Source: Cruoricaptor ignavus (lineage in GTDB: Bacteria > Bacteroidota > Bacteroidia > Flavobacteriales > Weeksellaceae). From it: DNA of 64,000 nucleotides. Position numbers and translations under genes: made by a program. The stretch covers positions 1 through 64,000 of the forward strand of contig NZ_FQYI01000007.1 of the NCBI RefSeq assembly GCF_900141665.1. The letters are read 5' to 3'. This document shows, in pieces, positions 53,137 to 61,783 of this stretch (the stretch's first letter is position 1; the number at the start of each line of letters is the position of its first letter). A model generated the notes under the pieces. It did no database searches. It was not told the origin of the DNA and worked only from the letters and a program-made list of their open reading frames with translations.

Positions 53137-53466
53137 ATGATCAAGGTAAGCGATGAGGCGAAAGCTACGGCGGCAAGGCTGATGCAGGAAGACGGCTTCA
53201 ACCCTGAGACGGATTTCATCCGTGTAGGCGTGAAAAGCGGCGGCTGTTCCGGCCTGGAATATGTGCTGAAGTTCGATAATGCGAAGGCCGATACCGATCA
53301 GGTTTTTGAAGACAACGGCATTAAAATCCTTGTCGATAAAAAATCGATTCTTTATCTGGCGGGAACTACGCTGGAATATTCCGGCGGGCTGAACGGCAAG
53401 GGCTTCGTGTTCAACAACCCGAACGCTGCAAGAACCTGTGGTTGTGGGGAGAGTTTTTCGTTGTAA
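53137..53466 (+). CDS. sufA: A-type iron-sulfur carrier protein (SufA/ErpA-like)
   Basis: The 109-residue protein has the three conserved cysteines of A-type carriers: Cys37 in VKSGGCSGLEY and Cys101 and Cys103 in RTCGCGESFSL. The family receives Fe-S clusters from SufBCD and passes them to client proteins. It is the first gene of the suf operon. A four-helix-bundle gene lies between it and sufB. Confidence 0.93.
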   Translation: MIKVSDEAKATAARLMQEDGFNPETDFIRVGVKSGGCSGLEYVLKFDNAKADTDQVFEDNGIKILVDKKSILYLAGTTLEYSGGLNGKGFVFNNPNAARTCGCGESFSL

Positions 53467-53468
53467 GG

Positions 53469-53483
53469 GTTTAAAGTTTAAGG
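53469..53483 (+). repeat. Left copy of a 15-bp inverted repeat flanking the four-helix-bundle gene
   Basis: GTTTAAAGTTTAAGG starts 2 bp after the sufA stop codon. Its exact reverse complement lies at 53889-53903, at the end of the next gene. Confidence 0.9.
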
Positions 53484-53498
53484 TTTAATGTTCAAAGA

Positions 53499-53894
53499 AT
53501 GCCGAAAATTGAGCGTTTTGAGGATATGGAGATTTGGCAGAGAGCACGTGCTCTTTGTCAGAAAATCTATGCCATTATTCAGGATACGCCTCTGAAAAGC
53601 AACTTTAAACTTGCCAATCAAATCGATGGTTCTTCTGGCTCAATAATGGACAATATAGCGGAAGGCTTTGAACGAAACGGAAATAAAGAATTCCTGCAAT
53701 TTCTTTCGATTGCAAAAGGTTCCTGCGGAGAAACTCGGTCACAACTTTACCGGCTATTTGACCGGAATTTTATCAATGAAAAAGATTTCAATTCTTTGCT
53801 TAAGGAATGTGAGGACTTAAGCCGAAAAATTTCGGCATTTATGAATTATCTCAACGGAAGTACGCTGAAAGGCGCGAAGTTCAAGCAGCCTTAA
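53499..53894 (+). CDS. Four helix bundle protein (S23/23S rRNA intervening-sequence protein family)
   Basis: The 131-residue protein begins MPKIERFEDMEIWQRARALC and carries the family pattern FKLANQIDGSSGSIMDNIAEGFERN, EFLQFLSIAKGSCGETRSQLYR and a final helix DLSRKISAFMNYLNGS. Relatives occur in rRNA intervening sequences and beside other genes in Bacteroidota, and related bundles serve as accessory proteins of diversity-generating retroelements. No function is established here. The gene interrupts sufA-sufB and is bracketed by perfect inverted repeats. Confidence 0.9.
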   Translation: MPKIERFEDMEIWQRARALCQKIYAIIQDTPLKSNFKLANQIDGSSGSIMDNIAEGFERNGNKEFLQFLSIAKGSCGETRSQLYRLFDRNFINEKDFNSLLKECEDLSRKISAFMNYLNGSTLKGAKFKQP

Positions 53895-53903
53895 ACTTTA
53901 AAC
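53889..53903 (-). repeat. Right copy of the 15-bp inverted repeat
   Basis: CCTTAAACTTTAAAC, exact reverse complement of 53469-53483. It overlaps the last codons and stop of the four-helix-bundle gene and ends 21 bp before sufB. Confidence 0.9.
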
Positions 53904-53924
53904 TTCCAAATTTTGAACTGAATT

Positions 53925-55373
53925 ATGGCCAAATACACTGAAGACGATTTACGGGAAGACCTGAAAACCAAGGAGTACGAAGCGGGATTTTATACCGACA
54001 TTGAGTACGAGGAGTTTCCTACCGGGCTGAATGAGGACATCATCCGGGCGATTTCCGCGAAGAAAGAGGAACCAGACTGGATGACGGAATGGCGCCTGGA
54101 AGCCTTCCGAAACTGGCAGCAAATGGAGGAACCGGACTGGGCGAATGTAACCTACGAAAAACCTGATTTCCAGGCAATAAAATACTATGCCGCACCAAAG
54201 AAAAAATCAGAACTTGAAAGCCTGGACGAAGTGGACCCAGAACTTCTGAAAACTTTCGAAAAGCTGGGCATCAACATTGAGGAGCAGAAAAGGCTTGCAG
54301 GCGTTGCTGTGGACATCGTGATGGATTCGGTTTCCGTGAAGACGACTTTCCAGGAAACGCTGGAGGAGAAGGGCATCATCTTCTGCTCGATTTCCGAGGC
54401 GATTAAAAACCATCCTGACTTGGTTCGGCAGTACATCGGGAAAGCCGTTCCGCGAACTGATAATTTCTACGCCGCACTGAATTCCGCCGTGTTTTCGGAC
54501 GGCTCTTTTGCCTACATTCCGAAAGGTGTAAAATGCCCGATGGAGCTTTCCACATATTTCAGGATTAATCAGTCTGGAACAGGGCAGTTCGAGCGCACGC
54601 TGGTAATAGCAGATGAAGGCAGCTATGTATCGTATCTGGAAGGCTGCACAGCGCCTGCAAGAGACGAGAACCAGCTGCACGCTGCAGTGGTGGAACTGAT
54701 TGCGCTGGATGATGCGGAAATCAAATATTCCACGGTGCAGAACTGGTTTCCTGGCGATGAAAACGGAAACGGCGGTGTTTATAATTTCGTGACAAAGCGC
54801 GGCCTTTGCCACAGAAATTCGAAGATTTCGTGGACACAGGTAGAAACCGGCTCTGCCGTTACCTGGAAATATCCGTCCTGTGTTTTGCTGGGGGATAATT
54901 CTGTGGGAGAATTTTATTCGATCGCAGTGACTAACCACAAACAGCAGGCAGACACCGGAACGAAGATGATACACATCGGGAAAAACACAAAATCTACGAT
55001 TATCTCGAAAGGAATTTCCGCAGGGAAATCGCAGAACTCTTACCGTGGCTTGGTGAAGGTTTTGCCAACGGCAAAGGGCGCGCGGAATTTTTCGCAGTGC
55101 GATTCCTTGTTGATGGGCAATGAATGCGGTGCGCACACCTTCCCTTATGTGGAAATCAAAGATCCTGCTGCACAGCTGGAGCACGAGGCCACGACATCCA
55201 AAATCGGCGAAGACCAAATCTTCTACTGCAATCAGAGAGGGATTGACACGGAAAAAGCTATTGCGCTGATTGTCAATGGATTCAGCAAGGAAGTTTTGAA
55301 TAAACTGCCGATGGAATTTGCGATAGAAGCACAGAAATTATTGGAAATTTCTCTGGAAGGAAGTGTGGGATAA
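53925..55373 (+). CDS. sufB: Fe-S cluster assembly protein SufB
   Basis: SufB is the scaffold subunit of the SufBC2D complex, where clusters are built. The 482-residue protein shows [20 protein letters not shown], the beta-helix core ([43 protein letters not shown]) and the C-terminal [43 protein letters not shown] (split here over its parts). It lies 30 bp after the four-helix-bundle gene. Confidence 0.97.
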
Positions 55374-60805: not shown

Positions 60806-61699
60806 ATGTATCACAAGCCTGTACTGCTGAAACGAAGCGTGGATGATTTGGTGACAAATCCTGATGGAATTTATGTGGACTGCACTTTTGGTGGCGGCGG
60901 ACATTCCCGCGAAATTCTTTCGCGGCTTTCGGAAAACGGGCGGCTTTTCGCCTTCGATCAGGATCTGGATGCGCTGGAAAATAAGATTGACGATGCAAGG
61001 TTTACGCTCATCAACCAAAACTTCCGCTTCCTGGAAAATTCCTTGCTGATGTATGGAATCAGCGGTGTGGACGGCGTTCTGGCAGATTTGGGCGTTTCTT
61101 CCCACCAGTTTGACGAGGCGGCAAGAGGCTTTTCCACAAGAAGCGATGCACCGCTGGATATGCGGATGAATGTGCGGCAAAACCTGGATGCAAGGCGCAT
61201 CATCAACGAATATGAGGAGGAGCAGCTGGCGGATTTGTTCTATCATTACGGCGAACTTCGTGAGGCGAGAAAACTGGCGCGCGAAATCGTGAGCTACCGG
61301 AAGGAAAAGCCGATAAATACGACGGCTGAGCTGAAATCGGTTTTTGCGTACATCCCGGCAAACCGGCAGAACAAGTTTTTCGCGCAGGTTTTCCAGGCGA
61401 TAAGAATCGAGGTGAACGAGGAGCTGGAAGCGCTGAAGGAAATGCTGGTGCAGGCCCTGAAAGTTTTGAAGCCGGGCGGAAGACTCTCGGTAATCTCTTA
61501 CCATTCTCTGGAAGACCGGCTGGTAAAGCGTTTCCTGAAGAACGGGATGTTCAGCGGTGAACCGGAAAGAGATGTGTTCGGCAATTATCCCAAAACATTT
61601 GAACTGCTGCAAAGCAAGGCGGTAATTCCCGATGAAGCGGAAATCTCGGAAAACAGCAGGGCAAGAAGTGCGAAACTGAGAACAGGGATTAAGATGTAA
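60806..61699 (+). CDS. rsmH: 16S rRNA (cytosine(1402)-N(4))-methyltransferase
   Basis: RsmH methylates C1402 of 16S rRNA. The 297-residue protein has the SAM site DCTFGGGGHSREIL, ADLGVSSHQFDEAARGFS, AKKLAREIV-like EARKLAREIV and PGGRLSVISYHSLEDRLVK. It starts 14 bp after mraZ. The length is typical. Confidence 0.97.
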   Translation: MYHKPVLLKRSVDDLVTNPDGIYVDCTFGGGGHSREILSRLSENGRLFAFDQDLDALENKIDDARFTLINQNFRFLENSLLMYGISGVDGVLADLGVSSHQFDEAARGFSTRSDAPLDMRMNVRQNLDARRIINEYEEEQLADLFYHYGELREARKLAREIVSYRKEKPINTTAELKSVFAYIPANRQNKFFAQVFQAIRIEVNEELEALKEMLVQALKVLKPGGRLSVISYHSLEDRLVKRFLKNGMFSGEPERDVFGNYPKTFELLQSKAVIPDEAEISENSRARSAKLRTGIKM

Positions 61700-61783
61700 G
61701 AAACAAGGCAAAAGGAAAAATTTAGAATTTAAAGTTTAAAGGGAACATCAATTATAAACTATTAATCATCAACCATAAAAATC

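Follow-up and report, generated by a model that had tools for sequence, protein, structure and literature searches.

An intervening-sequence-protein gene between inverted heptad arrays in the suf operon of Cruoricaptor ignavus, and comparable elements at other bacterial loci

Results

A four-helix-bundle protein gene between sufA and sufB

The analysed window is a 64,000-nt stretch of the Cruoricaptor ignavus genome (contig NZ_FQYI01000007.1, positions 1 to 64,000). Gene content and named hits such as Chryseobacterium point to a Flavobacteriales-like host lineage in Bacteroidota. Within the window, sufA (53137..53466, +) is followed by a 131-aa ORF (53499..53894, +) and then by sufB (53925..55373, +). 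A sequence-only reading of the window had taken the ORF for a four-helix-bundle gene in the suf operon, and profile searches agree on both points. The protein belongs to the 23S-rRNA intervening-sequence-protein family (IVP, S23p, "four helix bundle protein") and matches PF05635 (E = 2.7e-36, 124.5 bits; curated cut-off 33.8) and TIGR02436 (8.9e-35, 119.2 bits; curated cut-off 24) above the cut-offs, while Pfam matches of the neighbours are Fe-S_biosyn for sufA, the SufBD core for sufB and sufD, and an ABC transporter for sufC (sufB, sufC and sufD are named by gene order). IVP is the only family returned by Pfam for the suf protein, a comparison with PHROGs gave no match, and the gene is the sole ORF of at least 60 aa between the repeat arms described below.

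Among solved structures, 2gsc and 2rld, with five chains each, were the only relatives of the suf IVP found. Residues Q41, S48, N52, E55 and E78 are invariant in a 26-row alignment that has the suf IVP itself among its rows, and position 44, a nearly invariant R in the relatives of that alignment, is G. The codon lies at 53628-53630 of the window, and the IDGSSGS motif found there is common to two relatives, L470 and L018. IVP ORFs are under purifying selection, with a median dN/dS of 0.115 and values below 0.5 in 179 of 179 pairs, which are non-independent.

Inverted heptad arms at the suf locus

The 15-mer GTTTAAAGTTTAAGG occupies 53469-53483 (+) and its exact reverse complement 53889-53903, confirming that a perfect 15-bp inverted repeat brackets the gene. 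Its placement was also described correctly: the left copy starts 2 bases 3' of the sufA stop codon, and the right copy overlaps the end of the ORF (last sense codon and stop codon). Dinucleotide shuffling produced a perfect inverted repeat of at least 15 bp once in 20,000 trials, the comparison being made between two 60-nt junction windows chosen post hoc. The arms are longer than first noted, since the 15-mer belongs to a pair of inverted arrays whose units measure about 7 nt. The left (5') arm (53469..53497, +) reads GTTTAAA GTTTAAG GTTTAAT GTTCAAA, includes the 15-mer at 53469-53483 and contains a lag-7 segment at 53469-53495 with a score of 14. The right (3') arm (53889..53918, −) reads GTTCAAA ATTTGGA AGTTTAAAGTTTAAGG on the reverse strand, includes the 15-mer at 53889-53903 and runs over the final codon of the ORF and its stop; its outer end is 6 nt 5' of the sufB start.

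A search for further genomic copies, proposed along with the original observation, located the exact 15-mer three times in the 2.23-Mb genome: the two sufA-sufB copies and one copy without a gene at C8:146975, where it is carried by a solo heptad array (L003, 1496-1520). Lag-7 segments show no excess within the window alone (2, like several other lags); in 753 kb of the genome, with simple repeats kept, there are 34 against 5-17 at other lags, yet 27 at lag 12. The window holds a second heptad-like array at 61690-61779 (lag-7 score 23), beside a mraW-like gene (Methyltransf_5) and without an IVP gene. Another gene-less heptad array of this genome, at C19 (L363, 9311-9337), has an inverted partner about 70 nt away.

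IVP matches were found at four places in the C. ignavus genome, sufA|sufB, carA|carB, groES|groEL and glyA|recX-like (carB and groES were identified by reading the sequence), the broken groES-groEL copy giving two matches. The neighbours are co-directional in all four cases, and each copy is bracketed by inverted repeats with a motif of its own. The three paralogues are 33-39% identical to the suf IVP. Own-arm inverted-repeat scores of the three clear copies are 30, 36 and 28. At groES-groEL (L007/L172), the IVP is frameshifted and the arms are weak (score 22), and in a separate comparison the best inverted match at this locus fell elsewhere than in the arms; this copy is a decaying cassette in which the heptad arms are still recognisable.

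Periodic inverted arms at IVP genes from many phyla

As far as sequence can tell, arms of inverted short tandem repeats accompany most of the IVP genes examined. Loci were drawn from the listed best-scoring matches (30 and 27 new loci plus 80 and 40 of our own choosing) and from a set of 584 relatives, of which the best 80 were kept; elements whose flanks were too short were left out, and L069 gave no ORF hit. Strongly periodic flanks were observed for 232 of 282 copies from many phyla, with the period at 7 nt in 183, at 8 in 40, at 9 in 7, and at 6 and 12 in one copy each; no separate shuffled control accompanies this criterion, for which the control flanks are those of the host-family lag-7 comparison. 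In that comparison, made with the same filter as for the 114 host-family ORFs, the mean best lag-7 score was 12.4 upstream and 12.5 downstream, versus 3.7 for control flanks, and lags that are not multiples of 7 gave mean best scores of about 4-5.

The two arms of one element have a common motif that differs between elements. For the 114 IVP ORFs of the host family, the median inverted-repeat score was 30 between an element's own arms and 18 between arms of different elements. A score of at least 26 was reached by 68% of these ORFs, compared with 8% of cross-element arms and none of 19 control ORFs; at a score of at least 22, 4 of the 19 control ORFs in the IVP loci were included. Similar separations were obtained for 66 elements of the phylum outside the host family (29 versus 18) and for 75 named elements of many phyla (34 versus 17), a set that spans Clostridia, CPR bacteria, Acidobacteria and Planctomycetes among others. 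Arm similarity was 0.51 within elements and about 0.20 between most (88 of 115 host-family elements used), and it was 0.43 for 52 IVP pairs, 70-80% identical, in different contexts. Motif likeness tracks protein likeness across contexts (Mantel r 0.16, reached by 0 of 500 permutations; 88 of 115 elements), clearly so only above about 60% identity. All p-values are nominal because elements and pairs are phylogenetically non-independent.

The arrangement of the arms was measured in 218 elements with both arms periodic. Arms hold 4.6 units in the median; the median distance from the end of the 5' arm to the ATG is 11 nt, and that from the stop to the beginning of the 3' arm is 2 nt. The G-rich strand of the motif runs inward, with G exceeding C in 192 of 218 5' arms (the reverse in 18) and C exceeding G in 194 of 218 3' arms (the reverse in 21). 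IVPs with a low period-7 signal do not simply lack arms: ten of them from TTAGA-poor genomes all have an inverted match with a score of at least 31 (400-nt flanks, without cross-element control at that length), and periods of 6-10 nt are visible in several of them.

Presence and absence at shared sites, and related units elsewhere

The sufA-sufB junction was read in 30 genomes, one of which (L015) has no sufB inside its stretch. IVP cassettes are found there in C. ignavus and three others (L016, L018, L023). The L018 IVP is interrupted and is 68% identical to the suf IVP over its longer part. The IVPs of L016 and L023 are only 33-36% identical to it, and therefore at least two IVP lineages have used the site. 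Three genomes (L012, L013, L019) carry gene-less heptad hairpins of 75-81 nt, and thirteen other spacers measure 46-945 nt. The suggested check for relatives whose suf operon lacks the gene was fruitful, as nine genomes have spacers of 6-33 nt without any element. The arrangement thus varies among the 30 genomes, and the possibility raised against the original proposal, that all relatives carry the same one, is false. One of the thirteen other spacers, in L011 (1827-2769), holds an unrelated 224-aa ORF without a Pfam match, with heptad arrays on both sides in the same orientation.

At groES-groEL, also read in 30 genomes, the IVP ORF is present in seven including the frameshifted C. ignavus copy, with arms that are mostly TAAGC/TTGGC-like; a remnant was found in L194, arms only in L190 and L196, and a one-sided arm in L179 (by eye). 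Gene-less GTACATT-type heptads, of another motif family and some of them inverted, were seen by eye in the groES-groEL spacers of L178, L180, L185, L189 and L191.

Related units also occur elsewhere. The closest relative of the suf IVP at another locus among the matches listed (L470) is 65% identical, and its arms have a similar TTCAA core. A clade of IVPs with CAAGANC-type arms is present at three unrelated loci, namely carA-carB, an aldehyde dehydrogenase/aminotransferase pair and a peptidase M42/ribulose-phosphate epimerase pair, and similarity in alignments of this clade fades at or near the outer arm ends. Near-identical copies at clearly different sites were absent among the fetched loci. 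For pairs of 87% and 77% identity, the alignment reaches the edge of the compared sequence and the site may be common to both; clean different-site pairs are about 76% identical or less, and movement would therefore be old or rare. Judged from these comparisons, the element is present at one site in some relatives and absent from it in others, with related arm-ORF-arm units at unrelated sites. The view of the suf gene as an inserted cassette is well supported by the element-free short spacers, the related elements at unrelated loci and the arms that persist without a gene.

Placement within operons

IVP cassettes lie mostly in sense between co-directional genes, with neighbour strands taken from mechanical ORF calls. 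This was the case for 106 of 115 host-family copies, with none in antisense between two such genes; 8 of the remaining copies are at divergent or convergent pairs and 1 is unresolved. In the phylum sample outside the host family, 50 of 66 are in sense between co-directional genes and 8 in antisense, and the corresponding numbers for the named set of many phyla are 53 and 4 of 75. Since 640 of 925 adjacent gene pairs are co-directional, about 35% would be expected in sense. The suf element sits in the sufA-sufB spacer, outside rRNA, and an Rfam scan of 32 other IVP loci placed none of them in rRNA. The Rfam scan also returned two Acido-Lenti-1 RNA matches near an IVP gene of a KSB1 genome (L266, 3486-4104) and, close to an IVP gene of a Gemmataceae genome, a match to a group II intron (L248, 3637-3736).

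Solo arrays and IVP copy number

Heptad arrays are also found away from IVP genes. Four IVP-rich genomes yielded 21 arrays in 400 kb, none of them near an IVP gene, versus 3 in 400 kb from five IVP-free genomes, so that solo arrays are seven times denser in the former; 753 kb of C. ignavus contains 28 solo heptad arrays and 3 more near an IVP gene. Counts of two heptad patterns correlate with IVP copy number across 148 genomes (rho 0.63) and 33 genera (rho 0.74), and the correlation is positive within 9 of 10 testable genera. The median count is 0 in 17 IVP-free genomes and 16 in 131 genomes with IVP. Counts over the 148 genomes include the arms of IVP genes and score long arrays several times, and the reversed pattern, itself a plausible heptad, was added to the count and is not a neutral control. 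The IVP-free genomes come from few genera, so some of the correlation could be due to lineage.

A TTAGA comparison was made to see whether solo arrays match the IVPs of their own genome motif for motif, and it failed to show such a link. TTAGA-armed IVPs were found in 2 of 5 TTAGA-rich genomes (4 of 29 IVPs) and for 0 of 29 IVPs in five TTAGA-poor genomes, loci having been obtained for 30 of 36 matches (one gave no hit) in one group and for all 29 matches in the other. The link is at the level of the genome. With regard to the concern that the repeat is a common intergenic motif unrelated to the gene, solo arrays do exist, but they are tied to IVP-carrying genomes.

Discussion

A probable mobile cassette and rival explanations

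We think it probable, with considerable room for doubt, that the suf element is a self-contained mobile cassette of the ORF-bearing 23S rRNA IVS kind, located in an mRNA operon and with arms recognised by the IVP. Such a cassette would consist of the IVP gene between two inverted arrays of short tandem repeats, usually of 7 nt and sometimes of 8 or 9, and would presumably be co-transcribed with the host operon. From the sequence patterns we infer that the IVP binds its repeats. The protein would recognise the arm units as element ends, motif strand inward, and this recognition would drive the spread or upkeep of arms and solo arrays. The DNA or RNA chemistry is assumed to come from the host (recombination, RNase III or reverse transcriptase), because no recombinase gene lies between the arms and the IVP protein has no known catalytic activity. 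With 0 of 32 IVP loci in rRNA, the link to IVSs rests on protein family, architecture and one paper. A bolder version, which we offer tentatively and expect to fail sooner than to hold, places the IVP genes of all phyla, as autonomous members, in a single ancient superfamily of elements that do without a nuclease of their own. A pentameric ring would read about five short repeats per inverted end, one per subunit, and would seed gene-less arrays; the 23S rRNA IVS would then be a copy that landed in rRNA.

Other explanations account for parts of these observations. The AT-rich, low-complexity letters would suit a chance inverted repeat in an ordinary spacer, but the shuffling result (1 in 20,000) speaks against it and the recurrence in paralogues and relatives refutes it, leaving it practically no probability. 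Under neutral DNA mechanics, slippage would even out the units and template switching between the inverted arms would even out the arms, while the gene would merely happen to lie in a spacer rich in repeats. This would account for the concerted change of motif in both arms and is in keeping with the gene-less solo arrays. However, control ORFs in the IVP loci lack such arms (0 of 19 at a score of at least 26, 4 of 19 at at least 22), arrays are near background in IVP-free genomes, and the pattern tracks one gene family across phyla; we regard this explanation as quite improbable. Regulation at the RNA level is less remote, though still unlikely in our estimation. Here a ring protein would bind the heptads in the 5' leader of the mRNA that encodes it, each subunit taking one unit in the manner of TRAP on triplet repeats, and would repress translation or protect the operon transcript, with solo arrays as further targets. 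The short distance from 5' arm to ATG (median 11 nt), the 4.6 units per arm (both in 218 elements), the constant orientation of the motif strand with respect to the gene (G>C in 192 of 218 5' arms, G<C in 18), the sense placement and the purifying selection all agree with autoregulation, and start-codon-proximal heptamer arrays were proposed as translational-regulator sites in Beggiatoaceae (PMC4679880). Taken alone, it leaves unexplained the second, inverted arm after the stop, as well as the same-site presence and absence and the related units elsewhere.

The remaining rival was foreshadowed in the sequence-only reading, which had suggested a transcript region folding into a long stem around the gene. 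The arms would pair in the transcript with the gene in the loop, and RNase III would excise the element as in 23S rRNA. The cassette transcript can indeed fold with an 18-bp terminal stem (z −4.3), and the Coxiella IVS is processed by RNase III (PMC4990558). However, pairing between arms is barely above that obtained with shuffled unit order (30.2 versus 29.4, p 0.012; 168 elements), and transition mismatches show no G.U bias, with 71 of A.C type and 33 of G.U type (67 elements). A long RNA stem under selection thus received little support from either test and was rejected as a candidate, and a conserved RNA stem is weakly supported. What is kept is the core motif, in fixed orientation, and not the helix, although a helix may nonetheless arise as a by-product and be cut. 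These results therefore favour repeat recognition over a selected stem, and the stem-based explanation seems to us rather unlikely, if somewhat less so than autoregulation.

Most of the IVP genes examined have this build, so the 23S-IVS-type cassette seems to be a widespread element inside bacterial operons. This links the puzzle of rRNA IVSs with ordinary operons, and the IVP becomes a candidate for the protein that binds one class of heptamer arrays in intergenic DNA. The element-specific motifs in a common architecture offer a direct binding test for each member.

Comparison with known systems

Several known systems resemble the suf element in part. In REP/REPIN-RAYT systems, too, a gene lies between inverted repeats and gene-less copies rise with the gene. 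RAYT is a tyrosine transposase, whereas IVP is not known as a nuclease; the suf element encodes no tyrosine transposase, and Pfam returns the IVP family only. Moreover, the motif differs between elements of one genome, and the dependence of repeats on the gene is here an association at the genome level (rho 0.63 in 148 genomes; 21 versus 3 arrays per 400 kb) for which motif matching failed. A classical IS would have a transposase ORF between its inverted repeats, and here the IVP is the sole ORF of at least 60 aa. The Avd protein of diversity-generating retroelements is a related four-helix-bundle protein that works with nucleic acid, but no reverse transcriptase adjoins the suf IVP, whose neighbours are sufA and sufB. 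Cyanobacterial STRR are, like the suf arms, 7-nt tandem units in intergenic DNA.

ORF-bearing 23S rRNA IVSs, such as those of Coxiella burnetii and Leptospira, have the same protein family, the ORF in sense and terminal inverted repeats. ORF-less IVS forms exist too, resembling the gene-less arms. The suf element differs in lying in a protein-coding operon and not in rRNA, and in having arrays as arms, with a motif that varies between elements. Further likenesses, reported in PMC4990558, are a sporadic distribution and heptameric repeats that precede the start codon. That paper describes the Coxiella IVS as an IVP ORF with terminal inverted repeats, RNase III cleavage and tandem heptamers before the ORF, and the Xanthomonas IVP structure as a homopentamer. 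Its authors concluded that the RNA is of greater importance than the Coxiella protein, which is probably not produced in vivo; this counts against an essential role of the protein in that element. The earlier claim that neither an inserted cassette nor an enclosing stem had been described for the family therefore needs narrowing: 23S rRNA IVSs already provide examples of family ORFs enclosed by inverted repeats, one of them with heptamers before its ORF (PMC4990558), while for operon-embedded IVP cassettes with inverted heptad arms no description was found in the literature searched, which left most subscription journals outside.

The TAACTGA repeats of Beggiatoaceae, Cyanobacteria and Bacteroidetes resemble the suf arms in being 7-nt tandem intergenic units, often before start codons (PMC4679880). 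The binding proteins given for them are candidates only, and the terms "23S", "S23" and "intervening" each have a count of 0 in the text of that paper. The TAACTGA repeats are almost all direct arrays, whereas the suf arms are inverted around a gene.
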